From: Ascidia mentula
Taxonomy: Eukaryota; Chordata; Ascidiacea; Phlebobranchia; Ascidiidae
DNA length: 64,000 nucleotides
Assembly (NCBI GenBank): GCA_947561715.1
Contig: OX387201.1
Location: 21,404,001 to 21,468,000 of the forward strand
Reading direction: 5' to 3'
Positions 1 through 63,747 of this stretch are shown one piece after another (position 1 is the stretch's first letter; the number at the start of each line of letters is the position of its first letter). Below the pieces are notes generated by a model. That model was not told where the DNA came from, ran no database searches, and saw only the letters and a list, made by a program, of their open reading frames with translations. Made by a program: the position numbers and the translations under genes.

Positions 1-787
1 TATCATTTTCATACCCACTACTGCTTGTAGAGGGTTCTGTGGAAATCTGATCTTCAAATTCACACAATTTTCTCTTTTTTCTCATCACATTTTCCCAGCG
101 ATAAAATAACTGGTTGGAAACTGAATTATAGTCATTTCCTATTGGTACACTATCTACCACATCACGGAAGGATTTGGGATACCTCGAAACAGTTCTATAT
201 GCAATTTTATCCAAATTCTTTCTTCCTGGTTTTAGTGTTAGCTGAAATGAAAAATGAGCAACAACACTGTAACAGTCACCACTAAACTTTACAGGTCTAT
301 ATGAACAGTACTTACTTTCAATACTTCGTCTATTGTCTTGTGAATTAACTCTTTTCTTTGCATGAGGTTGGGTACTTTGCCACTTTCCAAACATTGAATG
401 TTTGCTGGGGAACACCGTTGCCAATGGATTGTAAACTCATAAATCCATTGCAATGATGTATTTGCTTCGACACTGCTAAAGCTGGAGTCTAGAACTTCCA
501 GAACTTGATGAAACTTTGAAAAAAACAATTGTGTACAATGTTAAATACATATGACTGGTATAACGCTATGCAAAAAATTTACACAAAATACCTGGTTCTA
601 TATTAGGTGCTTTAAGCAGCTTTCTTGCCTGCACTAGGGTGAATTGTATCAGCAGGTCCTCTAATTTAAGGTGTCTGAAGTCACCAAGTTCACGGACACC
701 AAGTGTATGTAAGTGTGAAACACACTCATCAAGTTTTGCTGGGTTATCAATCAGTTCAGGTAAAAGTTTAGTTACAAGATCTTCCAT
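1..787 (-). pseudogene. SAMD3-like gene, copy 1 (5' part, frameshifted)
   Basis: Minus-strand exons begin with ATG at 785-787 and encode a short helical SAM-like segment with a RKLLKAP motif, as in SAMD3-like uncharacterised animal proteins. Later exons carry RKNLDKIAYRIVSRYPKSF and RWENVMRKK, typical of the region after the SAM domain. Against copy 2, exon 2 here has a net 11-bp deletion at about 491-500 that shifts the frame and reaches a TAG within a few codons. At position 73, however, this copy keeps the sense codon AGA where copy 2 has TGA. The 3' end is beyond the window. The family assignment rests on motif memory and is moderate. Confidence 0.6.
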
Positions 788-806
788 TTTTATGCATATA
801 ACTGAC

Positions 807-1167
807 CTAAACACAAATGCATTGCTTTAAAACAACCATTTGTTTTAGTCCCACTCCATATACATATAGTGGACATTTGTGCAACAGATCATCAATGCAA
901 ATACATTTAAAGGAACCGTCTTGATGTTGGACTTCATACACACCATATTATGGGAAAAAATTAAGAAATTTGGGGTACACAACAAAATACAGTTTGGATT
1001 CTACAATACATATTGCCTGAATATCACCAACTTGTAAGTCATACCCAAATTTGGACAAAACAACAAGCATGCCTACAGCATAAATGATACCTTGAAACTT
1101 GGCAGAAGTTAACATATCACATTTAAATACATCAAAACCAACACTTTGGATTACGCCCATTATTACA
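807..1167 (-). pseudogene. Coding-like fragment with in-frame TAA, copy 1
   Basis: After a plausible acceptor (ttttctag) a minus-strand frame reads FQGIIYAVGMLVVLSKFGY, then VGDIQAICIVESKLYFVVYP. It meets TAA at 948-950 and stays open in the same frame past it (YGVYEVQHQDGSFKC) to a TAG at 807-809. The text on both sides of the TAA looks protein-coding. It could be upstream exons of the SAMD3-like gene or a separate relic; I do not recognise the domain. Confidence 0.4.
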
Positions 1168-1863
1168 CTAGAAAAATGAGTTGTTGGTGAAACACACACA
1201 AAAGCCTACTTATAGGCCTATAAAACAAATCCATTATTTCAACAAATTAATTATTAATTAAAAAACAAATCAGTTATATAATACTTACCTCTACTGGTAT
1301 CTTTCACAGCGTTTGATGACAAGTGCAAGCTTTTAACATGATTTCGTTGTATACTTTTACGCAATTATTTTCTAAAATTAAGCAAACAAGACAATTTACA
1401 CACATTTTTACCAAGCAGACGCCCTTACCTCGCAGACAACTGTTTACAGTAACTTCTTCGCGAAAAAAAGAGAAAAAATAATTTGGGCGACTCTGATTGG
1501 CTGGCGAGAAAACCTCGCCGTTTTTACGGAAGCATGCACGTAAAACGATTTTACATAAAAAATATACGCGGCCGCACGCAGTAACTTTTACGCATAATTT
1601 TAACACATGTGTATTAAACTACGAAAATACAATAATGTTAATAGATCAGTGCATTAGCTCGCGTTACTAGCTTGAAGCCGTTTTTAACAAACAATGCATG
1701 ATTCAACAGGAGATAATACTGTGGGGACGAAGCATCCTGTTTAATTGTCCCGCATATATCCTGCAACGAGACTATAGAGTTATGTTTGTATTCACGTAAA
1801 TCAGCAGAAACAATTTAAAGTAATTCTAGGTTGCGTTACTTTTGGTTACTGAAGAAAATTATA

Positions 1864-3449
1864 ATGAAGTGTGTTTGGGTTGTGTTGGTTGTACTCTTTG
1901 ATATTTTGCAATGCGCTAGAGCCCAAGGTTATTTTTTTCTGTTACATTTATTATATGGATGTTATTGTTTTATAAAAAGTTCTTGAAGATATGTATATAT
2001 TTCAATCATGAGTATTATCACCAGGGTACGCAAATATTAGGCCAATACAAATATTTTTAACGGGTATCGTATCAAAACATAACTTCCTCTAATTCGTGTG
2101 ATTCACTAATTACAATTGCATTTAAAACAGGTACATGCGAATGGTGCTTCAGAGAGTTGTCGTGTGAAGAACCAAGTGCGGGCAGCCCTAACGAAACATG
2201 CTGGAATTGCATCAGATCGACATGCGGTATATTGCTTAACAATAGGGCAGGATATAAACGCCTACGTAATGCAGTGTTTCCCAACATTAATGTAATCACG
2301 TACCGTTGGACATCTTCTACAACCATAACAATGTCTACAATACGGAGGCTCTATATTTTCGCCGCTGGTAGCCCATGGCGTCCTCCTTTGAAACAAGTCG
2401 CCTTTTTGGGCAATACGTAGCTGTTGGTCGAGTTGCGTGCCAAACAATATACAGCAACATTTTACCTTGTGGTTAATGTAACCATGTCATCCGTAAGGAA
2501 ACATGTAGCTACAACTAAACTGCTCGCGTACCACCTGGAATGCTGTTGTCGTAATGTGTATGATCGGGATGTTGTGCTCACCTAATTATTAACCCCATGT
2601 GATAGAACAACAACAATAAGAAATATAAACTTGCGTTTCACGTTAGACCAGTTTTGTATTTTCAAGAGTTTCATTTAAATGTATCGGAGACTGAGTTTAC
2701 GTTACGAAAATCGTGGCGCTAATTTACCAATATGCCATTGTAAGGAAAACAATACAATGCGCAGTATATATGTATGTGTGACAATTAACAACAATTATAC
2801 GGTAGTCCTATATTTAAGAGCGTCATTTTAATGTATCAGAGAGGGAGTTTTCTTTACGAAACTTGGCGTCGAGAGGAGTCGACTGCATAAAATCGAGTTG
2901 GATGAACGAAAGCTTGTGTTCCTCTTCTTGTCCCAATTTCACTGCTCAACACGAACAACGATTAATGAACTTCAAATCCTGCTTGAGTCCCTGTGTCGGT
3001 AAGTGCACAGCATAAGCGTAATGTTTATTAAGTAGTCTGGTGACGATGTACAAAAAACCTCCACAGTTTCTCGTTGAACGTGTTCGGTGTCAAGTTACAT
3101 GCATTATTTTGCGCAGTCGCTCTTCAAACTTTTTTGAACGTGTTTGCTAAATTATAATTTGCGTTAACGTCTACACTTTCCTTGAAATCAAGCTTTTATA
3201 AGCTCACGTTAAGCGCAAAATTCGCCCTTGTAATCATTGCAAGACCAAAACTACGTTTGAAACATCGCTTTTCACAAACGTGGTAATAACAAATGGTGGA
3301 AATCGTTGCAACTATAATGGGAAGCGATAATCGGAATAGGCTAACAGGAATTTTATACAATAGACTATGCTATGGAGAACGGGGTTGCTCAATGCCGTCC
3401 GGAGATTCCACACGACTTTGCCGACCCGCCACAGCAGTGCGTAGCTGAT
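1864..3449 (+). pseudogene. Truncated copy of secreted cysteine-rich protease-like gene
   Basis: Copy 1 of the gene at 8141-13450. Exon 1 is 1864-1927 (signal peptide beginning MKCVWVVLVVLF), exon 2 is 2131-2226, exon 3 is 2876-2998 and exon 4 starts at 3364. It ends at 3449 where gypsy sequence takes over, so all later cysteine modules and the protease domain are missing. The three complete exons remain open and in phase. In exon 2 a Leu-Gly pair of copy 2 is Trp-Asn here, with all cysteines kept. It might still make a short secreted peptide, but it is more likely a non-functional fragment. Confidence 0.7.
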
Positions 3450-4534
3450 AACGCATTTTCAAAGAAAATGTCACAAATATTGGACTCACTTCAGGGAGTT
3501 TTGCGCACATGGACGAGAACGACGAGCGTTTGATGGGAGTCTTGTCGCGCCTACAGCAGGCTGGAGTAACGTGAAATGCAGATAAGTGTATTTTTACTGC
3601 TAAACTAATCAGTTTCTTAAGTCGTATCATTCATGAAAATGGTATTTATCCAGATCCTTATGTCCATCCTTCTCTTCTGTCTAGTAGACCATGGGAAAAA
3701 GTAGGAACACATTTGCTGCATTTCCAAGGTAAAATATATCTATTGGTCATAGATTACTTCTCGAGGTTTATTGAGTTGTCCCTTCCTGCTCATGGCACGA
3801 GCTCATCGGACATTATCAGTCACTTTAAGTCTATATGTTTTTCCCGCCATGGAATTCCACATATAGTGATGTCGGATAACAGCCCGCAATACAATTCCTG
3901 TATTTTTACTATTTCGCCAACGAATGTGGCTTCATTCACCCGACCAGCAGCCCACTATCCACAAAGCAATGGAGAAGCGAAGAGGGCTAACGGTAAAATG
4001 TCTACTAAGACGGTAGACATTTTACCGTCAGCCCTCTCCGTTTCTCCATTGACGGGAAAATGTCTACTAAGCAAAGCCGAAGGCCCCCATTTGGCGTTAC
4101 TTTCTTATCGTGCTACAAAGTTGGTTTCCGGATTCAGCCCAGCGGAGTTATGGGAAGACGGTTGAAGACGACAATTCCGTGATGGACGTCGTCCCTTGTC
4201 CTGGTCTTATTTATCGAGTTTCAGAGCTAAAGATCTCGAAATCTAGAAAAATCAAAAGCAAAATTACGACAAGCGACATCGGGTACGGCCTCTACCTGAA
4301 CTTTCCCCGGAAACCTACGCTTGGATCGGTGAAGAGGTTGGCATTGTACGTTCCCAAACCTCACTTCCACGCTCTTACATCGTCTATACCCCAAACCGGT
4401 CATTGGGAGGTAACTGTCGACACATACGGCCGATTCCAGAACAACGTGAACTGCGTACTCGCTCCGGTCGTTTGGTAAAACCACCCGTTCGTCAGGACTA
4501 GTAATTCCGATCTCGCATTTTCAGTAAAGGGGGA
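3450..4534 (+). mobile_element. Degraded Ty3/gypsy LTR retrotransposon (pol remnant)
   Basis: From 3450 the sequence resembles the C-terminal part of a gypsy reverse transcriptase, with internal losses and stops. From about 3650 it passes directly into an integrase core, so the RNase H region is missing. The core shows VIDYFSRF (first Asp), MSDNSPQY (second Asp) and QSNGEAKR (Glu), the D,D,E triad of the rve fold. The C-terminal part shifts frame and contains stops near 4165 and 4246, and ends with a TRSGR-type motif near 4470. A purine run at 4526-4534 is the likely polypurine tract. The element is dead. It truncates the duplicated protease-like gene. Confidence 0.85.
3967..4051. repeat. Fold-back duplication inside the gypsy integrase region
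   Basis: Arms 3967-4005 and 4013-4051 are inverted complements (39 nt each, three mismatches) around a 7-nt spacer. A short direct repeat (3991-4009 and 4053-4071) then resumes the original sequence. This fits a local template switch that copied the strand backwards and returned. The reading frame stays open across it, but the inserted residues are not part of a normal integrase. Confidence 0.85.
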
Positions 4535-5381: not shown

Positions 5382-7064
5382 TTATGTAATATTTAACAAT
5401 TTAGAGTAGCAAGAGCTTACAAACCGTTGAATAAATTCCATTGTTGCTGCTGCCTTTTCTGGGTATTGTATGTTAAATACATAGAATGAACAAAAAAGAC
5501 CGGAGAATGCAGGAAAAACTCACTGCATTGAAAAACCAAACTCCTCTCTATAATCAGCGAATAACAGCTGGATGATGCTGGTGTACTACCTAGAATTGAA
5601 AAGGAAAACACATTATTATACCCAAACCACGAAAATCCAACCAAAAAATGTAATACCTGTTGCAATTATAAACGGATTGGGATCACCATTCTCAATCGTT
5701 TCTTGCAGTAGCAAGTTATCCTGTCAAGAACATTTAGGTGCATAAGCATTCGGAGGCCTAAAAATGCATACTGATCACTTACTTGGATGCATTTTAAAAC
5801 AGTTGAGGTATCTTCTTTGAAATAACTTCCCAGAAGTTCCAAAATTGAAGTGGACTTTTGGAGTTTTATTTCCTATTGTTTTGCATTCAAGCCTAATCTC
5901 TTTAATGCAAGCAGCAACAGATGGTTTTGCCATTGCTTTCAAAGCTCTGCAAAACATGCGGTTTACCTAACAAGCATGTATTTTTAATAAAAACAAATTA
6001 TTACTTGTATGTGTGATAGCTGCGATTGGTCATTCTCACAGGAATTTCCTTTGGGTCATAACTTAAAGCCATAAGTTGACCATAGTGTTGCATGAGACAT
6101 TGTGAGGTTGCCAAGAATGGCCATTTTTTAAAAATTTCGCTTACTCTGGCATTGGTGTTGATGTCTTTTCGTTGTTTCGAAAAGGTACTCTTCATTTGTT
6201 CCATCACTTCTTTCATGTTTCTTTCTTTTTTGGTAAATTCCTCTTGGAGCCATTTTTGAAATATGGTATCATTTTCATACCCACTACTGCTTGTAGAGGG
6301 TTCTGTGGAAATCTGATCTTCAAATTCACACAATTTTCACTTTTTTCTCATCACATTTTCCCAGCGATAAAATAACTGGTTGGAAACTGAATTATGGCCA
6401 TTTCCTATTGGTACACTATCTACCACATCACGGAAGGATTTGGGATACCTCGAAACAATTCTATATGCAATTTTATCCAAATTCTTTCTTCCTGGTTTTA
6501 GTGTTAACTGAAATGAAAAATGAGCAACAACACTGTAACAGTCACCACTAAACTTTACAGGTCTATATGAACAGTACTTACTTTCAATACTTCGTCTATT
6601 GTCTTGTGAATTAACTCTTTTCTTTGCATGAGGTTGGGTACTTTGCCACTTTCCAAACATTGAATGTTTGCTGGGGAACACCGTTGCCAATGGATTGTAA
6701 ACTCATAAATCCATTGCAATGATGTATTTGCTTCGACACTGCTAAAGCTGGAGTCTAGCGGTTCCGTCGAAAATCCAGAACTTGATGAAACTTTGAAAAA
6801 AACAATTGTGTACAACATTAAATACATATGACTGGTATAACGCTATGCAAAAAATTTACACAAAATACCTGGTTCTATATTAGGTGCTTTAAGCAGCTTT
6901 CTTGCCTGCACTAGGGTGAATTGTATCAGCAGGTCCTCTAATTCAAGGTGTCTGAAGTCACCAAGTTCACGGACACCAAGTGTATGTAAGTGTGAAACAC
7001 ACTCATCAAGTTTTGCTGGGTTATCAATCAGTTCAGGTAAAAGTTTAGTTACAAGATCTTCCAT
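5382..7064 (-). pseudogene. SAMD3-like gene, copy 2 (multiply broken)
   Basis: Six minus-strand exons can be placed: 6869-7064, 6582-6790, 6005-6507, 5783-5946, 5657-5720 and 5382-5589. They encode a SAM-like N-terminus (residues about 1-65), a linker, a YPKSF..D segment, an acidic or basic helical region with KKWPFL and a C-terminal block with FYVFNIQYPEKAAATM and FIQRF, an order known from SAMD3-like animal proteins. Exon 3 has TGA at 6337-6339 where copy 1 has AGA. Family-like text changes frame inside exon 4 near 5875, and again in exon 6 within a T-run near 5514-5518. Three lesions argue for a pseudogene. SAMD3-like genes are common as multicopy, transposon-associated sequences; that link is from general knowledge. 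Confidence 0.6.
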
Positions 7065-7083
7065 TTTTATGCATATAACTGAC

Positions 7084-7444
7084 CTAAACACAAATGCATT
7101 GCTTCAAAACAACCATTTGTTTTAGTCCCACTCCATATACATATAGTGGACATTTGTGCAACAGATCATCAATGCAAATACATTTAAAGGAACCATCTTG
7201 ATGTTGGACTTCATACACACCATATTATGGGAAAAAATTAAGAAATTTGGGGTACACAACAAAATACAGTTTGGATTCTACAATACATATTGCCTGAATA
7301 TCACCAACTTGTAAGTCATACCCAAATTTGGACAAAACAACAAGCATGCCTACAGCATAAATGATACCTTGAAACTTGGCAGAAGTTAACATATCACATT
7401 TAAATACATCAAAACCAACACTTTGGATTACGCCCATTATTACA
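7084..7444 (-). pseudogene. Coding-like fragment with in-frame TAA, copy 2
   Basis: Duplicate of the fragment at 807-1167. The TAA sits at 7225-7227 in the same place as in copy 1, so the stop predates the duplication. The frame stays open on both sides, from the acceptor near 7445 to a TAG at 7084-7086. The product is unknown. Confidence 0.4.
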
Positions 7445-7476
7445 CTAGAAAAATGAGTTGTTGGTGAAACACACAC

Positions 7477-8140
7477 AAAAGCCTACTTATAGGCCTATAA
7501 AACAAATCCATTATTTCAACAAATTAATTATTAATTAAAAAAACAAATCAGTTATATAATACTTACCTCTACTGGTATCTTTCACAGCGTTTGATGACAA
7601 GTGCAAGCTTTTAACATGATTTCGTTGTATACTTTTACGCAATTATTTTCTGAAATTAAGCAAACCAGACAATTTACACACATTTTTACCAAGCAGACGC
7701 CCTTACCTCGCAGACAACTGTTTACAGTAACTTCTTCGCGAAAAAAAGAGAAAAAATATTTTGGGCGACTCTGATTGGCTGGCGAGAAAACCTCGCCGTT
7801 TTTACGGAAGCATGCACGTAATACGATTTTACAGGAAAATATACGCGGCCGCACACAGTAACTTTTACGCATAATTTTAACACATGTGTATTAAACTACG
7901 AAAATACAATAATGTTAATAGATAAGTGCATTCGCTCGCGTTACTAGCTTGAAGCCGTTTTTCACAAACAATGCATGATTCAACAGGAGATAATACTGTG
8001 GGGACGAAGCATCCTGTTTAATTGTCCCGCAGATATCCTGCAATGAGACTATAGAGTTATGTTTGTATTCACGTAAATCAGCAGAAACAATTTAAAGTAA
8101 TTCTAGGTTGCGTTACTTTTGGTTACTGAAGAAAATTATA
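7477..8140. other. Intergenic spacer between divergent genes
   Basis: This spacer separates the minus-strand SAMD3-like gene from the plus-strand secreted gene and is conserved in copy 1 (about 1200-1863). It is the probable 5' flank of the secreted gene. I see no clear TATA box or other defined element. Confidence 0.4.
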
Positions 8141-11100
8141 ATGAAGTGTGTTTGGGTTGTGTTGGTTGTACTCTTTGATATTTTGCAATGCGCTAGAGCC
8201 CAAGGTAATTTTTTCTGTTACATTTATTATATGGATGTTATTGTTTTATAAAAAGTTCTTGAAGATTTGTATATATTTCAATCATGAGTATTATCACCAG
8301 GGTACGCAAATATTAGGCCAATACAAATATTTTTAACGGGTATCGTATCAAAACATAACTTCCTCTAATTCGTGTGATTCACTAATTACAATTGCATTTA
8401 ACACAGGTACATGCGAATGGTGCTTCAGAGAGTTGTCGTGTGAAGAACCAAGCGCGGGCAGCCCTAACGAAACATGCTTGGGTTGCATCAGATCGACATG
8501 CGGTATATTGCTTAACAATAGGGCAGGATATAAACGCCTACGTAATGCAGTGTTTCCCAACATTAATGTAATCACGTACCATTGCACATCTTCTACAACC
8601 ATAACAATGTCTACAATACGGAGGCTCTATATTTTCGCCGCTGGTAGCCCATGGCGTCCTCCTTTGAAACAAGTCGCCTTTTTGGGCAATACGTTGCTGT
8701 TGGTCGAGTTGCGTGCCACAATATACAGCAACATTTTACCTTGTGGTTAATGTAACCATGTCAACCGCAAGGAAACATGTAGCTGCAACAAAATCTGCTC
8801 GCGTACCACCTGGAATGCTGTTGTCGTAATGTGTATGATCGGGATGTTGTGCTCACCTAATTATCAACCACATTGTGATAGAACAACAACAATAAGAAAT
8901 ATAAACTTGCGTTTCCCGTTAGACCAGTTTTGTATTTTCAAGAGTTTCATTTAAATGTATCAGAGACTGAGTTTACGTTACGAAAATCGTGGCGCTAATT
9001 TACCAATATGCCATTGAAAGGAAAACAATACAATGCGCAGTATATATATGTGGTATGACACTTAATAACAATTATACGGTAGTCCTATATTTAAGAGCGT
9101 CATTTTAATGTATCAGAGATGGAGTTTTCTTTACGAAACTTGGCGTCGAGAGGAGTCGACTGCATAAAAACGAGTTGGATGAACGAAAGCTTGTGTTCCT
9201 CTTCTTGTCCCAATTTCACTGCTCAACACGAACAACGATTAATGAACTTCAAATCCTGCTTGAGTCCCTGTGTCGGTAAGTGCACAGCATAAGCGTAATG
9301 TTTATTAAGTAGTCTGGTGACAATGTACAAAAAACCTCCACAGTTTCTCGTTGGACGTGTTCGGTGTCAAGTTACATGCATTATTTTGCGCAGTCGCTCT
9401 TCAAACTTTTTTGAACGTGTTTGCTAAATTATAATTTCCGTTAACGTCTACACTTTCCTTGAAATCAAGCTTTTATAAGCTCACGTTAAGCGCAAAATTC
9501 GCCCTTGTAATCATTGCAAGACCAAAACTACGTTTGAAACATCGCTTTTCACAAGTGGTAATAACAAATGGTGGAAATCGTTGCAACTATAATGGGAAGC
9601 GATTATCGGAATAGGCTAACAGGAATTTTATAAAATAGACTATGCTATGGAGAACGGGGTTGCTCAATGCCGTCCGGAGATTCCGCACGACTTCGCCGAC
9701 CCCCCACAGCAGTGCGTAGCTGATGAGGTTACTGAAGAATGCGGAAGCTGCTATCGACACGATATGTGCTTTACTGCTGATGAACTGGAGTCGAGCTGCC
9801 GTGCACATTTAAAAGCTACATGTCCACAAGGTAGTCACATACAGCAACTAGTTAAACCACTTTAGTTTTATATTCCGGACATTTATTGCACACGGGCCTA
9901 GAAAGAACATCACCACTAAACCTTAGGAGAAAAGAATTCGTGACTTGTGGCAATAAATTCGAGAACTTGATCTTATATTATTTATTTAAACAACTGAAGA
10001 ATTAATTTTTCTCCAATGGCATCGTCGGTTTCTGATCAGATTTGGCAAACCTCGGGTATTTCGGATTCGCGTAATACGTACAGAAACTGTATGTCATAAA
10101 AGCGAAGTATTGCCGCTATTATAATTAAAGATCATATTGAATGAGTACGCCAGCGCAGTAAAAGACGGTCGACTCCGAATACCTTTTATCAGCAATCAAA
10201 CCGAATGCAAATGTTTATTGACGTCATTCATTTTAATAATGGCTGTGGAAAACAACTCACACCTCTCTTCATTACGGTTTTTAATTTCTCTACAGCGAAA
10301 TAATTTTGCTAAATTCCTTTTGTAATGCAGCTATTTCAACAGTTTCCACAGCTAGCTAGCCTCGTAACGGGGATTTAACCGCACCTTTAAAGCGGACATT
10401 GTGACATTTTTATTTTAGTCAAATTTCCTCAGAAGGATAATTACGCACACATAAACCTTACACTTTTAATGCTAGTGCTATTTCCCTGTTTAAGTACATA
10501 CTGAAATGTGAGGAAGCACATGTTTGTAGGATTTGCAGACAATATTCGGATTCAGTCATGCATATTAAAGCTGATCGACTGCCGCTCTTTTTTGAATTCA
10601 CATAATATTATGATAAAAATCACATTCGAGGAGCTTCAACGATGACTTGTATACATTTTCCAGGTTTCAATTCAACATGTATGATCCAGGCCTGGCAAGA
10701 TGGCGGTTCAACATGCCCACCTATAAACACTACCATTATGAACCGTCTGACCGAATGCGGCATCTGTCTTAGCGAATGTGCCGGTACAAAACCTGACAGT
10801 GTTCTTATACTTCATAACATTTTACCTGACTGATGCACATCCTATAATGTCACAATATTTGCTGCTCGTTTTCAGGCATGTCAGCTTGTTTAAAAACTTG
10901 CAAAGATCAACGACCTCCTTTTCCCAGCGACGTTCAGTGTGCTCTTTGTCGTGCCTTGTGCGCAGGTGAGTTCATGTACACCTGCACCTATCTCACGGCT
11001 TTCCACCGCCACTAACTATCAGTATAACTGCACGTTAAGTGCAGTTTTTGCAATTCCAGTCCACTGGAGGCACAAGTTTTGTGCAGCTTGCTGTTATTGA

Positions 11101-13450
11101 AACATAAATAAATTTGCGGTTATGATATATGTAGTATTTAAACCACATACAACTTAATGGTGTGAATGTGTTGCAGGTACCGCAGATTCGACAGCTTGCG
11201 TCACACAAAATTGTGATTGTGCCCGGTGTGATGAATGTGTAGCAAGTTGCAAGTCACAGCACGGTATGTAAACGTACTTGAAATTATCATTCGCTACAAT
11301 TCTGCTGTAGTTTGTTTTGCTCGTAAATATATTCCACTTGAAAAAAAACTTATTGCTTTGTTTAAGGGACGAAGTTTTTTAGTCTTTTGGATCCATGCAC
11401 TTGCTTAGAACGAGCCACTCCTTTATCGACAACGATTTCACCCAGAATCTTGGGTAACTTATAATGTTTTGACTTTGTAGTTTCCAGTTGTACTAACGAA
11501 TATATTTTAATTGGGGTACATTAAATTTTGTTTTAACAAATTCCCGTCCAAACCAATATTTTAGTTGTATTAATTTTTGAGTAAGATTCAGACACGGCCA
11601 CGACAACTATTATATTTCATTAATGCAACTTCGGTCTTGGCACCCAAGTCGCGAAGCAAAGTCAAAATTTGCAGTCATTAGCTGGGTAACTAGAGACAAA
11701 CCGCCGTTGATAAATCTTGTTGGAACACACTACGGCCAAGCAACTGCAAAAACAAATAGAGCCGAATTATTTTTTTTGTTTTGGGAATAATGCAGGTGGC
11801 GAAGAAACGTGCAAAGGAGATTATCCGTTTATGGCTTACATGTATCAGTTGTCTAATGTGCAAAATATTTTATTTGGGGGATCTCTGATTTCTGACGAAT
11901 GGGTGATCACGGGTATCCCCAGGTATTTTTTTTGTTTCTGTCGTTTAAACTACACCAAACACCAGGCTATTTATTTTCTTGTTTGTATTCACTGACTTCC
12001 TTAAAACAAAATATCACGAACTATAGCTTCGCAAGGGAGACGATGGGAGTTGTTTTGGGAGATCGGATTCGATCGAGTGTTTCCGGAACAGAACAGTTCT
12101 TCACCATATCCGAATTGATAACTCATCCGAACTATGATGAATCAACTTTCAACTACAAAGTTGCACTTCTCAGAGTGAGTATAATTTTGAAGCGGAAGAT
12201 ACTAAAGTGAAAACAAAATGTAGATACAGGGATTATTCAAGCGCCTATTTATAGAATTTAAAAACAAACTTTTTGCAACTACTGCTCTACATTTCTGTTT
12301 TTTGGCCGGAAAAATTAATTTGTTGCCAAAGAACTTGCACAAATTGAGAGTTCACTGGTTACATTTTCGAACGTGGTGTCCACCGCCACACTATTCTATT
12401 GTTCAACTGCATGCAGTTTGCTTGCGAAAGACCATTGATATTGCAATAAATGAGGATCCACTTGCGAAACTGAGTAATAGCAAAGAACTGTTTATTCGAC
12501 AGCTGTCGAGAAAAGCTACGTTCAACCAATTTGTGATGCCAGTTAACTTGGTGTCAGATGGAACAAGAACAGACGATGACAGCAATTCCTTTGCCGGGAC
12601 TACTTGCTACATAGCGGGCTGGGGACAAACAAGTTTGTATATACAGCTTTCCGTATGAACTAACACACACCCTTCGCCATGCGGTTCTGCACTGGCTCTT
12701 ACAGAGAACCATGTGCATGAATCCTATTTCTTCGACCTTGTAAACTACAAACTGATCTTTTTTCTCCTTGGGTGAAGATTATTTCAAATAAATATAATAA
12801 ATTAATAAAACTATACCCGTAAAAGCATTGGAAAAACATGATTTTGTTGCAGGCCCGAGCGGTCCAGCTTCCGACGTATTGCTCCAACATGCCTCTGACA
12901 TCGTTCCGATCACAAATTGCTCTTCGTTAACTGCATCGTTTGGAACATTCCGCGTGTCCGCCGGAGACCCAAAGTTTTGTGCTGAAGGCATTGCTGGAGA
13001 AGGCCTTTGCACTGTAAGTATTTATAATATACATTAAAATGGTCAAGTGAAAACATGCTGAGGGAAAACCTGGACGAAATTGCCAACTCTGGTAACGAAA
13101 CTGGTGGCAACCAACTTTTAAAGATAATAAGCTTCACTTACATGGCGTCAACAACTTTGCCAGTCACAAGAATTCCCATATTTTTTGCAGTTTCAAATAA
13201 TATCGTTTTATTCAAAGCACGATGGTGGAGGCGGTCTTGTCTGCCGCCATCCCAACCAAGGTAATCAGCTCTTCCTTCATGGAGTTTTGTCATACGGTCA
13301 AAGTGTCTGCGATATCTGGAATGTCTACGACAAGGTACTTCAAGTCCCAGGTTTTGAGTGGAAATCTTAACCTTTGATACTTGACTAAGAAAATTTCTTC
13401 CACAGATAGCCGACGTGCGTGTGTGGATTGACGGAGTCATTTCTGCTTAA
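8141..13450 (+). CDS. Secreted cysteine-rich, trypsin-like serine protease homologue (pseudoprotease)
   Basis: Thirteen exons: 8141-8204, 8407-8502, 9153-9275, 9639-9830, 10664-10783, 10876-10965, 11177-11263, 11796-11922, 12027-12174, 12503-12632, 12853-13013, 13218-13334, 13406-13450. They total 1500 nt, about 499 residues. A signal peptide is followed by six cysteine-rich exons, all phase 1-1, then a trypsin fold from about residue 258 (GGSLISDEWVIT, CYIAGWGQT, HGVLSYG, final WIDGVIS). At the catalytic positions His57 is Pro299, Asp102 is Lys344 and Ser195 is Gly449 (HDGGGGLVC). Cys42 and Cys58, normally disulfide-bonded, are Phe284 and Ser300, and there is no R-IVGG activation site. It should be a non-catalytic secreted binding or regulatory protein. 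Least certain are the exon 4 start and the 11922/12027 junction, although phase and alignment support both. Confidence 0.8.
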
Positions 13451-13573
13451 CATCAAAACAGGACGGAACGCCACATTTGTCGGCTTATAATAAGAAACAT
13501 ATACTCAGAGTTAATAAACAACACACATGTATTAGGCTTGTCGTTGAAAGGATTTTAGTTTCAGTTAATTTCC

Positions 13574-13633
13574 GTTGGTAGATCTTGATCAAAGTTGGTA
13601 GATCTTGAACAAAGTTGGTAGATCTTGAACAAA
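13574..13633 (+). repeat. 20-bp tandem repeat, three copies
   Basis: The unit GTTGGTAGATCTTGAACAAA occurs three times head to tail, the first copy with one substitution. It lies about 120 bp after the stop codon of the protease homologue, probably within or just beyond its 3' UTR. Confidence 0.9.
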
Positions 13634-39105: not shown

Positions 39106-40128
39106 TTAAGGAATTAATTTATTCTTCCAGTCCCACAAACATAATTTGTGATCGTAAAACGAGCAGGAAGCAATAGTTGAACTTTCAACTTTGTTTTCAC
39201 GGTCCATGTAGCGCCAGTCAATGCCATACGCCAAAGACTCGTGATTTTCGTATCTTTCAATCACTTTTGGTTCAGTTTTACAGTCAATGATTGAAAACCC
39301 GTTATGCATGCAAGCGCACGCCAAGTAATCGACATTTGTGGGATTCCATTTTAACCTCCACACCCCGCCCCCAACGTGAACCGTCGACAGAGGAGTTTTA
39401 CCGATTTTTCGCGTGTCCCACAGTCTTACGTTTTCGTCGTAACTTCCGGTGGCCAACAGATTCTCCTTTAAGTGGCTGCACTGAATGCTACAAACGCCCA
39501 TGTCATGTGACCTGTTGGTAAAAATAGGAGAATTCGTCCGTAAATCGTAACCACGAAATAAACAGTCATCTCCTCCAGTATAAACTTTATCCGTCTCCCA
39601 ATAATCGAACGCTGTGATCCACGCCTCGAAGTCATGGGACTTCCATTTCTGCACAACTGTAATCTCATCTTTTGAGACTTGGAACACACAGATATGTCCT
39701 GTGGAATAACTGACAACAACTTTCGGACAATCGTTATTTTCACGTCGAGTCGCCCAGTCCAGTGACAAGGCTATAGATTCCTCTGGTTGCATAAAAGTCT
39801 TCCAAAGGCACAAACTGTCGGCCTTTAGCTGATACAAAGTAAGCGACCCTTTGGCGTCCGCCGTTGCCAAGACAACCACGCCACCAGGCAGGGTGTGATG
39901 GGACCATTTCATATCAAGTATTCCTGGGCATTTTCCACACCAAACATCATTCAGAGTGTTTTCGTCGTGTCGATAAAGTTTGATTTCCCCAAACCTCGTC
40001 CGGTCCACTTCATTCAACTGATAAGTTCCCCCTGCAAGGATGTTCTGGTGAGGATCCACCGGGCACCACTCCACACTGTCTGCATGGAGTCCTGTGTCCA
40101 ACTCTTGGTGAGTTACAATATCTGACAT
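39106..40128 (-). CDS. DPH7: DPH7 (WDR85), diphthine methylesterase
   Basis: DPH7 removes the methyl ester from methylated diphthine on elongation factor 2, the step before the final amidation in diphthamide synthesis. The single open frame of 340 codons starts at ATG 40126-40128. The N-terminus reads LHADSVEWCPVDPHQNILA with AGGTYQL, as in DPH7. WD motifs follow: GILDMKWSHH, EAWITAFDYWETDKVYTGGD, MGVCSIQCS, LLATGSYDENVRLWDTRK, GGVWRLKWNP and a final SFYDHKLCLWDWKN. The length is similar to other DPH7 proteins, which carry extra insertions in vertebrates. The gene is intronless here and shows no lesions. Confidence 0.93.
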   Translation of the reverse strand: MSDIVTHQELDTGLHADSVEWCPVDPHQNILAGGTYQLNEVDRTRFGEIKLYRHDENTLNDVWCGKCPGILDMKWSHHTLPGGVVVLATADAKGSLTLYQLKADSLCLWKTFMQPEESIALSLDWATRRENNDCPKVVVSYSTGHICVFQVSKDEITVVQKWKSHDFEAWITAFDYWETDKVYTGGDDCLFRGYDLRTNSPIFTNRSHDMGVCSIQCSHLKENLLATGSYDENVRLWDTRKIGKTPLSTVHVGGGVWRLKWNPTNVDYLACACMHNGFSIIDCKTEPKVIERYENHESLAYGIDWRYMDRENKVESSTIASCSFYDHKLCLWDWKNKLIP

Positions 40129-40577
40129 TTTACATAAAAACTAATGTTGCATTTTAACCATCTGCAAAGCACAAAAATATGCTGTTGATTTAGAGCACAT
40201 TTGTATGTTTTAAATTAAGTAAATACAAAAATTAGCTGTATGAACTTTTTTATCATAGATTTCGAACAAACAAGTGAACCACAATAAATTATACAATAGA
40301 TAACTAAATAGGTAACAGGCAGTTTGGGGAAATATCAATAAGTATTTAAAGCAACCAAAAGAGAGATGAAATGGCATAATGTCACCAAATACAACAATGC
40401 CCCATACATGAACTATGAACACCACACAATAATTATTGATCATCTTGCGAACGAAACCACACAAATCTAATGCAAAAAAAACAGCATAGAGATCTTGTTG
40501 TACTTGAGGCTACTAACAAACTTTTTCAGCAGAAAACATGGAGAATTATTGCACAAAATTTAACAGATTCGAGGAAG
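40129..40577. other. Intergenic between DPH7 and the WD40 gene
   Basis: AT-rich 5' flank of DPH7 and 3' flank of the WD40 gene. No feature supported. Confidence 0.45.
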
Positions 40578-46835: not shown

Positions 46836-49800
46836 TCAAGAAAAACAGGCTTTATTTTCTTTTTCTAAAAACCAAGATTGAACAGAAAAGTTATGGCGAG
46901 ACAAAGATGTGGACACTGGTGACAACGTGCCTTCATCATTTTTCTTGAGTTTCTTCACATACGAACATACTTTGCAGAAACCTTGCCTTTCTTTTAACCC
47001 TGACATTTCCGAAATGTCCAGAGTCATCCACTGGAGATACTTTTTGTATTCCTTATCGTTTCTGTTCAAATATTCCAAATATTTTACAAGATCTTCAGGA
47101 GTTTGGAAGTCCTGAGCGTAGATGAAGGAGTTAGGAGGAGCCACAGCATCGTAGTCAGCCTTGGGAGCGCCGAGCACAACGGGCACAGTCATGGCTGCAA
47201 GGGAGTTTTTCCAAAATTTCTCAGTGATGTAATCCTTGCACCCCCAGCTGTTCTCAAACGCCAAGTAAAATTTAAACTTGGTGTTGTTGAACTCCCGTCG
47301 AACTTTGCTGCCGCTGCATTTTCCACCGAATGTGAGATTGAAGCCGGTTTTCATCATTCTTGTCGCGTATCTCATTCGATCAATCGCACCTCGGTTCATG
47401 TTGCAGTTTGAAACCACCCACAAAGCGAGGTGCGTTTTCTCCTTGATGAGTGCGTCCAATTCTTCGTCACTCATTGGTTGTTCATCAAGGTTTACTTTTT
47501 GGTAGACACGTGATGCACTGCCGTATGACAACGTGATGTCCGAATCCCTCCTGGAAGGACACGTGACACAAACCAAACAAATATAAAAGTGTTTCTAGCG
47601 AGCTAGCTTGTTAAAATTGAAACACAATAAGCTGTGGAATGCGAACTGTTAAAAAGAAAGTTCTTAGGCTAGAAAGGTTGTCCCAGTAAAACTCTTACCT
47701 GTACGTTACGGAAATATTAAATATTCCATCCATCTGTTCGGATTCAAAATATTTTTGATTGTGCAGAGTCAGTGAACTTTCCATACTCCACCAAGCGTAC
47801 AAATGGTTTTCCTCTCTAAAATAAAACTTTTCTGTTTACCGCACGTCATACAACCGGACACAACAGGGAATCCAGCAAGTTTAAGAAATCTATCGATGGC
47901 ATGTATCCGCGATAATTACTATCATTATTGCACTTAAATTAGGAAAGTAAACTGTTTTACTCAATGTGAAATGTGTATGTAGGTTTTACAAAGTTTAAAA
48001 TAACTATCCTAGTAGACAGTAGGTTGTTGGTTTGTCTTTAGAAAAGTATATTTCCTTATTGTCGGCAACCATCCAGGGTTTCTACTTGCTTACATCTACA
48101 TTGCGGAAGTTCACGTTACAAAACATTTTTTCAATGTATTTATGACATGAAACCTTAAGCATGCAACAGCGCCTTAATTGTATCACCTTTTCTGTGGTAG
48201 ATCAGTGGAATTATAGTCGGCAAAGTGCATTGCGACCACTTTAACACCATCTCCATCCAACTGTAACGACAAACGTAAAGCTGCCAAAAAACAATGTGCT
48301 TCGTCGGTATTATACCAATACGTGGTTTAAACTTCACTGTGTTTCTGTTCCTGTGTTTTCTGTAAAAAATCCTACGCGAAACACTGACAGGTCGAATCAT
48401 TCAGAGCAAAAGAAACCAATTGGCAGTGTTTCACATAAAAATTTGAAATAAGTTCACTAGGTAAGAATAATCGAGACTTTAAGTCAGTGTTTCCCAACCG
48501 GTGGTACGCGACCACTAGTGGCACGCGACGGCATTCCAGGTGGTACGCGAGACCATTCCCGTAATTTGCGGATCTAGTTCGTCTTTAAAATATCGTAAGT
48601 GATCTCAAAATGTTTGTTACTTCATACTCTAGGTTACTTTGTAACACTCAACTAAGTGGTATGTAACCACTAAAAGGTTGGGAATCACTGCTTTAGGTGA
48701 ATTAATCCAATTACGGCAAGTTTACCGGAGGTCAAGCTGGGTTTAAACTCATTTGCCAAATTAATATCCATGTTATAGGCACAAAATTGTTAATGTACTT
48801 TGGATCGATTCTGTGTGACGATGCAATCATCGCAGGTTTCCAAGATTCGATCCTCTCGTGTCTTTGCAAATGGTGGGTACCACATCACAATATATATCTA
48901 AATAGATAAAAAAGAGATTGGTTGTAATCATGAAGCAGCACATAGCGGTAGGAGGTAAAACTCACCGGGTCACTTTCATTGCTCGAATATTTTAAAATTT
49001 CGTTTCTTTTCTGCAAATGTAGAAAATGTTAAATTTGGAATTTTGTTTCAAAAGTAACCAGGCCTAATTCTTCAAAATCTAAATTAAAATTGGAAAAAGT
49101 TTTAGGCAATGAATAAACAGAATTGACCAATCAAGTTTTTTGTTTAAAAATTGTGCTACTGTTCACCAGGGATGAATATTGCAACCTCTTTTTTTAATTT
49201 GAATCAAACTCTGCCCCTTTTTTGCACACTTGCATCACCATTCTTTGTTCTTTTTTTTTGTAAGGAAGAAAACAATTTGCATTAAAAGTTGTTCACAGCA
49301 AATCACACTCATTATATGAGTGGAAGACAAAGCAAGCTAACGGTCAGCAGACAGTTAACAAAGACAAGACGGTTACTGAAGACGACAGAAGAGGAGAATC
49401 ACACAGGAAAACCTAATGTCTCGAAGCTACCAAACACTCTCAAACTAACTAATAAAATCACTTGACAACGTAACTGTTGCTTGGAAATCAAACATGTCTT
49501 GAAATTAATATGACGCCAAAACGGTTGGGAAACAATATTACACAAAGGACACAAAAGACACGAATCACATGTTATGTACAACCGTTGCTATCGTTATACC
49601 TTGAAATGAAACACACTTGACAAGAGTAATTTTACTTTTTCACGAATTGAATTTCAATCTTATTCTAGATATATTCTTCTTGTGACTTAGAAAAGATAAC
49701 TTGACTGTTATGCCCAACCCTAGACACGCCCCCAATAGACACGTCAGTGGACAGGGCATTTAGTAAGCACACAACGTGCGTATGCGTTTGCCCAGAGGCT

Positions 49801-50438
49801 ATAACACTGACAAATGCTGAATGAAGCCTTGACACGAAGGTCCAGACACATTTTAACAGCATAGTAAAACTGTTTGCGATTATTTCATCACCAGTAAAAT
49901 AACCCTAAAAAACTTTACAAATCATAAATTTCATTTTCTCGTCGCCGGTTTTCTCGAAACTTCGTGTGAAATTCATTGCATTAAAAAACTCAGTCAATAA
50001 TGTCATGGCTTTCTTATACAGAATTGCTAATGTGTGTTGCTAGCAACAAATATATCAATGATATCAATTATGAGCATGGTTGTAATCTTGAAAATAAAAC
50101 ATTGCGACAGAACACAGAATGATTCTTGTTCCAAAATGGAAATAAACTAAAGTCTCTACTGGAATGCAAAATAAATTATAATTTGGGAATGAAAAACAAA
50201 CCAAATGTGTCAATGACTTCACCACTTCAATCAGAAATTAACACAAAAATATGAAGGAAAGATGAAGTTAAACTCCTTGGAATTGACTCACCTTGAAACT
50301 GCTTGAAGTATTTGAGTTCTTCCCCTCTAGCTTCCTAACCATGATAGGGTAACGCACGGTGATAGAATAGTAAGCCAACGTGAACAGCATGAAAATTAAC
50401 AGAAAACTCCACAGCTTGAAGGTTGCTGTGCACGTCAT
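46836..50438 (-). CDS. Alpha-1,3-fucosyltransferase (GT10 family)
   Basis: This Golgi enzyme would transfer fucose from GDP-fucose to N-acetylglucosamine-containing glycans. Six exons are placed at 50292-50438, 48966-49010, 48799-48897, 48187-48260, 47699-47815 and 46836-47550. They sum to 1197 nt, or 398 residues plus stop, normal for the family. Exon 1 gives a short cytoplasmic tail, a signal anchor (FLLIFMLFTLAYYSITV) and a Ser/Asn-rich stem, the type II layout. Downstream come MWYPPFAK, an ADYNSTDLPQK region, the TYRRDSDI junction across exons 5 and 6, and the donor-binding FKFYLAFENSWGCKDYITEK with FWKNSL. No lesion is seen. The paralogue type within alpha-1,3-fucosyltransferases cannot be decided. 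Exon 1 is duplicated at 60682-60828. Confidence 0.9.
48485..48690. mobile_element. Non-autonomous hAT transposon (MITE)
   Basis: It begins CAGTGTTTCCCAACC and ends GGTTGGGAATCACTG, typical hAT inverted termini. The 206-bp element is flanked by CTTTAAGT (48477-48484) and CTTTAGGT (48691-48698), an 8-bp target duplication with one change. It lies in an intron of the fucosyltransferase gene and has no coding capacity. Confidence 0.88.
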
Positions 50439-51914
50439 TCCGCCGCTGCAATACTGACTCAAACACGTGATTAAAAGAAACCAGAAACTTTATTCGGCCG
50501 CAGGGCACAAGTTGCAAGCGACGGCTTTGGTATCAACAAAGTTCATTATATGAATATTGGATACTAAGATTTATGAAGATTGGTCGAATTCTGTCTTCAC
50601 ACCTAATTACCACTATCGTAAGAGGCGGAAGTTTTGTGCAATTCTGTGAGTAATGTTACTTGTTGCTTGCTGCATTCCTCAATACTTCAAGACATTACTT
50701 ATTTATTGGTTGACTCTAGTGATTGCTTGTGTGCAGTACTCTTTTGCGTAACTTTTGTTCAATGCAGTTTAATGCATGCAGTAAATGCGTGATTTAATTA
50801 ACAAACTTATGATGGAAAATCACCTGTAGATTTATCTGTGCCGTGGTAAAAACTTAAAATCCATTGGTTTCATCAGCCTGCTGCTATGAAGAACATTAAT
50901 TGAAGGTTTGGAATCATCTTTAATAATAAAGGTTGCCAGATACGGTTTTATGACAACCCCAAATCCATTATTTACCACCGATAAACTTCCTGGCTGTGAG
51001 GATAAATTAAGTCAACTCACAAATGAATGTGAGAAATGAGGAGGTTTGGACACCGACGTAACATGTTGCAACTCCAGTATGTTGAAATGACGTGAGTAGG
51101 AAGTGATACGACAGTCAGTATGGCGTGATTACCTCAATAAGTGTGACGGTGTATCTCCACACATAATAGTCTGTTTTATACGAATTGTCGCAAAATATCT
51201 GTTACGACACAGTTTATGACAAGACAAGTGCATGTGGGTTTACTGATGCAGGGAAGAATGATGAGAAATGCAACCATAGTGCATCGGTAAAGTTTGGCTT
51301 CCGTACCAAACCATTCGGGTTCTGGTAAAATGAAAATCCTTGCATTGTAGTCAACGAATCGCGTCATGAATAATAAAAAAAGCATCTTTGCCGATGTATT
51401 TTGATTGTGATCCTGTGACCACCAGCCTCCATAATATGACGTCAAGCAAAGTGTTTTTGGAACGCCTGCACATGTTGCAACTAAACCCACGTTATCCCAC
51501 GCATTAACTGTCTATATATGAAGGCTCAGATACCATGAAGCCAGTATTTGAAAATTGGGTTTTGAAAAATATTTGCAGTGAAAGGAAGACTTGGAAATGG
51601 AAAACTATTCTCAACATGCCGATGTGATGAAACCATTCGGGTGAGCATTTCGTGTATCAAACATATATGATGTATTGTGCGATGGACAGGAACGATTCGT
51701 CTTAAGCAAGCAACGCTGAATACGTTTAGTTTGTGCTGGGGAGGCGCTACTTCGTTGTTGCGATATGAAATTTGATGTGATTGGTCTTTGAAGTAATTCC
51801 AAGAACTAATCATTGTCATTCCTAAATAATAACGCAGCCAAATCCAATGCATGTTTTTAACGTCAGAAAACTTGTTTTTGTTCTAACAGACATGCACGTG
51901 CTGAACCAATCCCC
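50439..51914. other. Spacer between fucosyltransferase and the five-exon gene
   Basis: Two minus-strand frames of just over 100 codons (51176-51490 and 51526-51852) stay open here and in copy B. Near-identity of the copies gives no evidence of selection, and neither frame has a recognised motif; the first begins at GTG rather than ATG. Confidence 0.4.
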
Positions 51915-52877
51915 ATGAAGGGACCTTGTAAGTGTTATATTATTACTTAGATACTTTGTAGACCAATTATAAACACTAATGTTTTCGCTTTAGTTTACAT
52001 GGTTGGAGAAAAGGATGGAAATGAGGTAAGAAACCTTACTTGATAAATTGCCGTTGTTCAGGATGATACAAAAACTAATGATGTCATGAAAAAAATAACT
52101 AATGATGTCATGATGTGTGTAAAGGACAATTATTCAAAACAAAAGCTTCATCATAAAATCCACATTGCCATATTGATATACTTTGCAGCTAAATATGAGG
52201 AGAGTGACGGTTGAAAACGGTGAAATCACCAGCGTTGTGGCAGAAACTTCGCTTTCTGTAAGTTGTAAACTGCATTTGCCCACAATTTTTTGTTACTTAA
52301 ATTCTACCTTAAGCTATAAAAAACATTTAATATTCTCTTTTAATATGGCCGTGTTATTATGGAAAAGTCAAAATATACGCTTCATCTATGATGAATTCGG
52401 CAAACATTACTCGCAGTTTATATCAGTGAAAATATTCACAGGGAAATGAGAAAAAGGTTGGAGTATTCGAATCAGACAGACAAGACTTAACACCTGGAAG
52501 GGTAAAAGTTTATAACTTTGCGAATCTGTACATATACATTATTAAATGTTTGCCAGATTGCTTCACGAATGAAGGTAGTTGAAGAATATTATTGAAATTA
52601 AACGCTTTACGTTATTTAGATTGCTTGGCTGCTGAAATTTCTGGACTACGAAGTTGGCATTTACACATTCAGTGAATCTTCTGTCACTCCATATCTAAAA
52701 GGAGCCATCATATGTTTATCTGTGGCCGATGATTTAACCATGTTGGCAGGTCCATCTAACGACTGGCTGAAAAAACGAGATTCTGTAATTGTTGTGTTTG
52801 TCAACCCAAGACCGGGATCAAACAAACTTTGCACGATTCCTGAAATTCGTCAAACTGCCGGTGAGACATTTTGCTGA
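51915..52877 (+). CDS. Unrecognised five-exon gene, copy A
   Basis: Exons 51915-51927, 51994-52025, 52189-52257, 52442-52501 and 52620-52877 all have GT-AG junctions, agree in phase, and run from an ATG to a TGA with no stops: 432 nt, 143 residues. The product begins MKGPFYMVGEKDGNE and contains RRVTVENGEITSVV, KKVGVFESDRQDLTPGR and, in the last exon, LKFLDYEVGIYTFSES, ADDLTMLAGPSNDWLKK and SVIVVFVNPRPGS. No signal peptide or membrane segment is evident. A donor-like GTGAGA near 52861 could extend the gene beyond the chosen stop. I do not recognise the family. Phase agreement over five small exons is the main evidence. Confidence 0.6.
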
Positions 52878-53284
52878 CATGCGTCATGGAAATAATGAAA
52901 GTCCCGATAGCTTTATGTGTAACAAAGGTTTATCAACGAATTTTTTGAACAATTGCTGTACAAAATCCTAAGTCCCAAGTTTGACACGGCTTCTATTTGA
53001 ATTAGTGGTGCAGATATTGATTACAAGATGAAATAAAATGCATCAAGGAAAAACCTTGGCAAAAAACGATCTATAGGATACCTTGGAAATATTTAGAATA
53101 TTTTATATTGTTTACATGTTACGTCATAATATGTGATCTTATGAAACATGATACTGTTTAGTGAAGCCATACTTACAGATATATAGTCTTAATTGCTTCG
53201 AAAACATTACGTTGTCGCGTTGTCCGCATAGCATAGAACACGTAGTATTGTTACTGCAGCAACCACAATAAGTCACCAATTCAC

Positions 53285-53360
53285 CGAACTCGAAAGAGAA
53301 GAAATCCTGACCGGAAATAGTATCCAGGATATCCTGGGTTCAAATCCCAGTGAGGTCAAA
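53285..53360 (+). repeat. tRNA-derived SINE fragment (copy A)
   Basis: It contains CCTGGGTTCAAATCCCAG, a B-box (GGTTCAAATCC) in a paired T-arm, then GAGGTCAAAAATAAATA as tail. The same fragment is at 63672-63747 through duplication 2. Confidence 0.6.
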
Positions 53361-54459
53361 AATAAATAGAATATAATTTGTGACACACAGAGTCACATGG
53401 ATTTCTTGGTCCGTTCTTCGACATGACGACTGAAGGATGCAGAAACTCATCTTTTCGCGAGGTTTTCTTCCAGATGGAGTTGGTCCTTCGCAGGATCATC
53501 AACCAACTCACTATTCCTGCCATTGAAAAATAAATCTTGCATCAGTTTATCAGTGCTTATAATTGTATTCAACATGGAAAAATAAGCAAGCTTAATCCTC
53601 TTCCCATATCTTACTTTAACGATTTACATTTGGACTTTATGTGTATGGCAATGATTGGGAAATATTATGCACTTTTCTTTACTAGCGTGTACTCTTATTT
53701 ATGCATGCATTTTTATATTTAATATGTGTATATCTAAATACAAACAATGCGGACACTATACTTAATTCAAATATGTAAACAAATGCTGTAATTTGATCTG
53801 ATTTAAATAATTGTATCAACTAATTATATAGAAACCCATCTGTCTCAAATCACCAAACTGCACTATGGTGTATTGGGTATTTGAGGTTCCCACCTTCCTT
53901 CACTACTGGCCCCATCTTAGGATTTATATTGAAGAAAATTTCTAGATCTGCAAATGCTCGTTTCGAACTCTTTTCAATGAGAATAATTGAACGCAACAAC
54001 ATCAACCTGTAATGCATTGGTGCCAACCGGAAGGTTTAACGAGTACACATACATTAATAAAACAAATTCATGCATCTTTGGATGAGGTTTAGTGTAATTT
54101 TGTGGATTGCAATAAAGCTACTGGGTGTACTGTTGGTAAAACCCAAGTATTGCAAGAAATGAATCGCAGAAGTGCTGTTAATGCACCGGTGATTATACTT
54201 TTGTTCCCGCTTGTTTTCCAAGGAAGTGTTTGTTTGGAAAAAGTTTGTATCTTTTCAATATTAGCAATGCGCCATAATTGTGTTACAACAACAACAATTG
54301 CTTTTTACTAAAGCTGCAACAATCAAACTTTTAACGCCATTTAAACAGTTCAAATCTACGTTGGTTTTTGCACTTCACACAACCACCTGAGGGCGTCAAA
54401 GATTTATATGTGATTTCAATTGAGTGACGCGCTTTGCGTGCAAACGAAATTCCCATTTA

Positions 54460-54520: not shown

Positions 54521-55065
54521 AAAATATACCGAAACGTTTTTGTAAAAACCCATTTGATAAAAATTCCAATTAAAAAAACACTACAATTTGCGCATGTAAA
54601 TGTACCAGGTACAAACAAATGCAGCGACGAAAACTGTGAGGACATTTTGGACATTCCGCACGAACCAATAGCAATTTTGTTGTATATACTTGCACACTTG
54701 TCTAAAGAATGAAATTCTACAAGAATCTATTTGACCAGCAAGAATCTATTTGACCAACGAATTCAGGGCCAGCACCCTAGTAAGGGAACAAGCGAACCAT
54801 ATTTGCTTTATGACGTCACAGTCATGTATCGCAAACAAGAACTTTGTCCTGACAAACAATTGGTATACACAACGATAAGGAAATTTCAGCACTAACTGGC
54901 ACCTGCAACATATATTGAAAGATGCAAGCCTTAAATGCTGTTGACAAATTATTAGTATTGTAAGTTAGTAGTTTTTAGGTGTGAGTATGATTTTGATAAT
55001 AAAAATACAGCTAATTAAAACAAAAGAATCTCACGAATAAACTATTGTAGAACATAATTTTGAAC

Positions 55066-63671: not shown

Positions 63672-63747
63672 CGAACTCGAAAGAGAAGAAATCCTGACCG
63701 GAAATAGTATCCAGGATATCCTGGGTTCAAATCCCAGTGAGGTCAAA
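63672..63747 (+). repeat. tRNA-derived SINE fragment (copy B)
   Basis: Duplicate of 53285-53360 with the same B-box and tail, carried by duplication 2. Confidence 0.6.

Follow-up and report, generated by a model that had tools for sequence, protein, structure and literature searches.

The window analysed here, a stretch of 64,000 nucleotides from the ascidian Ascidia mentula, carries on its plus strand a gene of 14 exons (8141-13450) that encodes a product of 540 amino acids. When the exons are joined at their GT-AG junctions, an open frame starts with the ATG at 8141, which opens a hydrophobic leader, and extends to the stop codon at 13450, and an AATAAA lies downstream of the last exon at 13513. 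A product of 499 residues, proposed in an earlier, sequence-only reading of the window, gives way to this longer model, whose exons reach back to 8141. The order along the product is a signal peptide (called on exon 1 by inspection), six Cys-rich exons, an activation exon and a trypsin-fold domain. The features are as follows:

1864-3449, plus strand: truncated upstream copy (copy A), exons 1-3 and the beginning of exon 4, within a 97.7% duplicate of 6267-9724
8141-8204, plus strand: exon 1, start codon and signal peptide MKCVWVVLVVLFDILQCARAQ, exit phase 1
8407-8502, plus strand: exon 2, Cys-rich module, phase 1-1
9117-9275, plus strand: exon 3, Cys-rich module, phase 1-1
9639-9830, plus strand: exon 4, Cys-rich module, phase 1-1
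10664-10783, plus strand: exon 5, Cys-rich module, phase 1-1
10876-10965, plus strand: exon 6, Cys-rich module, phase 1-1
11177-11263, plus strand: exon 7, Cys-rich module, phase 1-1
11367-11453, plus strand: activation exon, DPCTC with two Cys, then R^IL as the start of R^ILGG, phase 1-1; Arg15 codon at 11444-11446, Ile16 codon at 11447-11449
11796-11922, plus strand: trypsin-domain exon with GGEETC; Cys42 lost (ILFGGSL); His57 to Pro at 11918-11920
11921-11922 and 12027, plus strand: split codon, Cys58 to Ser
12027-12174, plus strand: trypsin-domain exon; Asp102 to Lys at 12157-12159
12503-12632, plus strand: trypsin-domain exon with C136 and GWG
12853-13013, plus strand: trypsin-domain exon with C168, C182 and C191; Asp189 to Gly
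13218-13334, plus strand: trypsin-domain exon with His193, Asp194 kept, Ser195 to Gly at 13224-13226, C201 and C220
13406-13450, plus strand: last exon, stop codon

For the whole protein, Trypsin is the one family that Pfam reports at E up to 1, with no clip, kringle or PAN domain; the Cys-rich part matches no Pfam family up to E 10 and finds a single, non-significant match in the PDB (E 1.2). The Trypsin match (PF00089), at 113.5-114.8 bits where the cut-off lies at 20.6, is too strong to be due to chance. In the 540-residue model the match reaches the upper of these scores and spans positions 1-220 of 220, and 516 PDB sequences match the product at E up to 0.001.

A trypsin fold without catalytic residues had been read from the letters, and it is borne out here in a frame open over 14 exons: the catalytic losses of the window gene are real. 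VITGIPSF, read across an exon junction (TGIPS where TAAHC is usual), puts Pro at position 57; FNYKVALL has Lys at 102; and CTHDGGGGLVC, in place of the usual CxGDSGGPLVC, has Gly at 195 and His at 193, where Gly is usual, with Asp194 retained. Residue numbering and cysteine pairing are transferred from the trypsin fold by alignment; on that basis Cys42 and Cys58 are both missing, again as first read, and the cysteines of the 136-201, 168-182 and 191-220 pairs are present. Residues 189 (Gly) and 193 (His), read from the alignment of C191, alter both the trypsin pocket and the oxyanion hole as well, and with His193 the loop may not be in its usual form. The product thus has Pro, Lys and Gly in place of the His57, Asp102 and Ser195 of an active S1A peptidase, and has the characters of a serine protease homologue (SPH): a trypsin fold, an absent triad and predicted secretion. 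It also keeps the sequence characters of an S1A zymogen, Arg or Lys15 followed by Ile or Val16 in SPR^ILGG, and Asp194 in HDGGGG.

This last point departs from the sequence-only reading, which held that the activation site was lost and that no R-IVGG site precedes the domain; SPR^ILGG lies in the 87-base exon at 11367-11453 that had been skipped. The exon is in frame, with borders tttaag/GGACG...TTGG/gtaact, and codes for GTKFFSLLDPCTCLERATPLSTTISPR^IL (full translation in the window, GTKFFSLLDPCTCLERATPLSTTISPRIL); spliced onto the next exon it reads R^ILGGEETCKGDYPF, and the protease domain of the 540-residue product begins R^ILGGEETC. It was located via a triad-bearing paralogue on contig C67, which has an exon reading ...SISPR-ILG between its last module and the protease domain. 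With the exon included, the Pfam score rises from 113.5 to 114.8 bits, the profile start moves from 3 to 1, and the E value of the best PDB match falls from 2.9e-22 to 6.3e-24, that match being plasma kallikrein, whose cleavage stretch is part of the alignment. The activation exon was found in 17 triad-less copies and also in the triad-bearing relative; it is in frame in 16 of the 17, all with Arg-Ile, the exception being L042 with a one-base loss. An insertion of modules between signal and protease exons that deleted Ile16-Val17 in one step was considered as well, and is ruled out by the presence of R^ILGG in this exon. In S1 zymogens, a cut after Arg15 lets Ile16 pair with Asp194, which orders the active-site loops; a protein with both ends of this switch kept and catalysis gone has what a cleavage-switched binding protein would need.

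A search of the animal's own genome (195.8 Mb, 79 contigs) with a 511-residue model as query gave at least 94 exon matches, on C69, C1, C67 and C72. Sequence was examined for 20 stretches of C69/C1, three of C67 and ten short pieces of C67/C72. Four distinct full open frames of 539-540 residues were found: the window gene, L039, L040 and L046. Among the fetched C69/C1 stretches, 3 of 20 have a complete open frame and 17 have no intact one, 16 of these with stops, frameshifts, inserts or absent exons; the remaining one, L058, is identical to L046 across 6,495 bases of exons and introns and has no exons 1-2 within its stretch. On C67, the readable part of the L059 and L060 stretches begins at exon 5, and from there on both copies have an open frame. 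Several copies are close to the window gene yet broken or truncated, namely copy A, L041-L045, L047 and L058. Copy A belongs to a direct duplicate (window 1-3449 against 6267-9724, 97.7% identical) whose exons and introns have diverged alike (9/405 versus 25/1176), so that the truncated copy bears no sign of constraint. Decay after loss of function is a serious rival to any functional account. On that view the triad was lost, copying would have been passive (by segmental duplication in a retroelement-rich region), the domain would drift neutrally, and the window copy would be intact only through its youth. The broken near relatives, the 17 copies without intact frames and the even divergence of copy A all favour such a course, and the four distinct full frames speak against it; weighed with the rates given below, it seems to us unlikely.

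Some features of these copies deserve separate mention. The identity of L046 (C69:21.35 Mb) and L058 (C1:15.07 Mb) points either to a transfer in the very recent past or to a duplication made in assembly. L044 (C69:21206500-21214500, minus strand) is an inverted near-duplicate of the window gene, 99.1% identical over 4,704 bases, with exon 9 disrupted by an insertion of about 230 bases. In L050, L051, L052 and L054 (C69:17.6-18.0 Mb) the signal exon stands directly before the last four exons; this form, without the modules and the His and Asp exons, has mismatched phases and yet has multiplied. Within the window, a broken sequence with a resemblance to LTR-retroelement pol/integrase (3450-4500, judged by eye) starts at the end of copy A.

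The family has relatives with a triad. The gene at C67:7,683,230-7,688,190 (L032) has modules 71-91% identical by exon to those of the window gene, an activation exon with R^ILGG and the full triad (FICGGSL..TAAHC, FDNDVALL, EDTCS-GDSGGPLVC), two of its exons being unread. L061 (C67:7655500-7660500, minus strand) is a module-free trypsin (IIGG, AGHC, DGDIALL, DSCD-GDSGGPLVC; Pfam 182.8 bits) whose protease exons have phases equal to those of the window gene. Its leader ends immediately before IIGG, and signal peptidase itself might create the active N-terminus; four more similar tandem exon sets lie at C67 7.65-7.68 Mb. In a 12-row tree built on four protease exons, from which L044 was left out for its unreadable exon 9, a branch with 100/100 support separates nine triad-less rows from both triad-bearing relatives and a distant trypsin. 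The tree is midpoint-rooted and leaves the order of the two triad-bearing relatives unsettled. Since a gene with modules and activation exon on another contig has the full triad, an enzyme is the probable ancestor of the dead branch, and a single loss of the triad followed by spread is the simplest reading.

The former active-site positions were tallied in every triad-less copy with a readable exon, including copies broken elsewhere; L056 is omitted for His57, and L045 and L053 for Asp102, for damage to the frame or a splice site. In this count, in which many copies are young duplicates and not independent, none of 23 copies has Ser at position 195, where ten have Gly, five Phe, four Val, three Asp and one Leu; none of 19 has His57, the site being taken by Pro, Ser, Val, Arg or Leu or the exon being shorter (by one codon in L053 and L055); and 1 of 16 has Asp102 (L059), the rest having Lys, Asn or Tyr. 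Asp194 is retained in 21 of the 23, with Gly in L053 and L055, and the six disulfide cysteines are kept except for Cys191, which is absent in L039 and L040. The copies fall into rough branches (window group, L039/L040, L048-like, L053/L055, L056-like, the C67 copies and C72). Six branch representatives were compared, namely the window gene, L040, L048, L055, L059 and L060. Of their 245 filled domain columns, 127 show no variation, whereas four or more residues occur in 25. The 25 most variable columns take in His57, Asp102 and Ser195 and also, as named by alignment, Cys42, positions 190 and 192 beside 191, and the stretch before C220. The chance that three given columns would all fall in the 25-column set is about 0.001, with the threshold set post hoc and the columns non-independent.

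Rates of change were obtained from NG86 counts with equal rates. For the codon counts, 11 exons carrying frameshifts or large deletions were removed by hand (in 13-exon numbering: L041 exon 4, L042 exon 3, L043 exon 11, L045 exon 9, L048 exon 4, L049 exon 9, L053 exons 3 and 4, L055 exon 4, L056 exon 8 and L057 exon 10), and exons with inner stops by script. In the modules, dN/dS is 0.37 between the window gene and L040 (95% 0.16-1.01, p 0.023), 0.40 between the window gene and L048 (p 0.061), 0.23 between L040 and L048 (p 0.0003), and 0.17-0.20 in comparisons with L060 (exons 5-7 only; p below 1e-5). The activation exon compared with that of L060 has dN 0.07-0.10 and dS 0.83-1.00 in three pairs. 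For the protease domain the values are 0.94 (window gene and L040), 1.08 (window gene and L048) and 2.00 (L040 and L048; 95% 1.19-4.55, p 0.015), the last becoming 2.31 (p 0.003) at a transition weight of 2; against L060 they are 0.53-0.69 (p 0.0006 for the window gene, 0.007 for L040, 0.04 for L048). Pairs with L055 give 0.19-0.57 for the modules, not firm, and 0.69-0.92 for the domain; L059 and L060 give 0.58 for the modules, on three changes, and 0.66 for the domain. Introns differ by 0.12-0.15 among the window gene, L040 and L048. The modules and the activation exon are mostly constrained, with the protease domain changing faster (dN/dS 0.5-2.0), and L040-L048 is the single pair with a firm value above 1. 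In the closest intact pair, the window gene and L046, the pattern is reversed (1.09 for the modules from 13 changes, 0.30 for the domain from 8), which makes the contrast between modules and domain a property of the older branches. An earlier view of the gene as maintained and not decayed holds for the family between older branches, with module values of 0.17-0.40 in six of the tested pairs; for the window copy the L046 comparison, on few changes, gives it no support, and 17 of the 20 fetched C69/C1 copies are not intact.

A domain dN/dS near 1 also favours decay, and with so many copies broken, truncated or lacking exons, relaxed constraint could explain the rate of the protease domain. Against decay stand the purifying selection on modules and activation exon between older branches, the kept disulfide cysteines (save C191 in L039/L040), the retained Asp194 and Arg15-Ile16, and the L040-L048 domain value of 2.0. 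The concentration of constraint in the modules, seen in six pairs, also suits a different account, in which the Cys-rich modules do the work while the dead protease domain rides along as a passenger or acts as a folding scaffold. We regard this as quite improbable, as just over half of the domain columns are invariant among the six representatives, the activation exon linking both parts is itself constrained, the intact copies keep the frame of the domain open, and no such modules occur outside the family among the matches listed in the own-genome search. Finally, a working protease made through an alternative exon supplying His57, Asp102 or Ser195 has in its favour that one exon was indeed missed at first, and is scarcely credible: a hidden exon with AAHC or GDSGG, which the sequence-only reading had named as fatal to its claim, was sought and ruled out by the absence of any AAHC- or GDSGG-like coding stretch on the plus strand from 11264 to 13600, the gene has no AAHC, DIAL or GDSGG pattern on that strand, the matches to a loose His57 pattern in the whole window (one on plus, at 25157, and two on minus) all lie outside the gene, exons 8-13 (13-exon count) share phases with the active-looking L061, and the residues are missing from the same exons in all readable paralogues.

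The reading to which we incline, and which we hold to be somewhat better than evenly balanced, is that the window gene encodes a secreted trypsin-fold pseudoprotease (an S1A SPH) that is still built as a zymogen and switched by cleavage, with a diversifying cleft. A trypsin-like protease of a cascade would cut SPR^ILGG, and the freed Ile16 end would insert against Asp194, ordering the former active-site loops. The modules may remain tethered by a disulfide between a Cys of the activation exon and the Cys of GGEETC; the latter is present in the six representatives and in L032, which has triad and modules, and is Gln in the module-free L061. The outcome would be a two-chain binding protein in which the modules are the conserved part and the former substrate cleft, relieved of catalytic constraint, serves as a variable recognition surface for a ligand, cofactor or decoy function. 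The loss of Asp194 in L053/L055 and of Cys191 in L039/L040 counts against this reading. A wider proposal is possible, if doubtful: that a modular trypsin became a multigene set of cleavage-switched recognition proteins, with the switch conserved and the old cleft, including the triad sites, under diversifying selection. If true, a protease scaffold would have come to work like a family of receptors or decoys that vary, with inhibitors, microbes or gametes as conceivable targets. If the pseudoprotease reading is right, one genome holds a graded series, from module-free trypsin through modular trypsin to several dead branches with the zymogen switch, and it could be tested in a single animal which selection keeps a dead protease cuttable and whether an emptied active site becomes a binding surface.

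Dead S1 homologues are common, and expanded dead families are already known, as two papers make plain: Tenebrio has 125 non-catalytic homologues beside 137 triad-bearing S1A peptidases (PMC11172050), and in the scabies mite a single active protease, Sar s 3, stands beside 16 inactive paralogues (SMIPP-S), with complement inhibition described for some of the latter (PMC4930577). Like the SMIPP-S so described, the family has several triad-less S1 paralogues beside an active-looking relative in one genome, a likeness in the way of evolving and not of common descent with the mite proteins. It differs from them in its six Cys-rich exons and separate activation exon, in having a module-bearing triad gene, and in counting the triad sites among its most variable positions. 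According to PMC13194640, which also describes the zymogen switch (Arg15 cut, Ile16-Asp194), cleavage makes HGF and MSP active, and the region of the pseudoactive site is their recognition interface. The window protein would share with these plasminogen-related growth factors a secreted two-chain design, a dead S1 domain and a cut at the zymogen site, all predicted here; unlike them, it has no kringle or PAN that Pfam reports. Clip-domain homologues of the CLIPA14 type are cut by a cascade protease and then act as cofactor (PMC9365933). Such arthropod SPHs likewise carry a dead S1 domain behind a disulfide-rich part, whereas the window protein has six module exons and no clip domain by Pfam; the clip-type parallel drawn earlier stands as a way of working and falls as membership. 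What sets the family apart from non-catalytic homologues generally is a kept switch versus a variable cleft within one family, together with its architecture. The part of the open-access literature that was searched yielded no such architecture, no family with a kept zymogen switch and triad sites among its most variable, and nothing close on tunicate or diversifying protease homologues.

Elsewhere in the window, a second direct duplicate pairs 49803-53613 with 60193-64000 (99.4% identical over 3,811 bases). Three long open frames resemble a WD-repeat protein (39106-40140, minus strand), an alpha-1,3-fucosyltransferase (46836-47594, minus strand) and a repeat-rich protein (55051-58998, plus strand).
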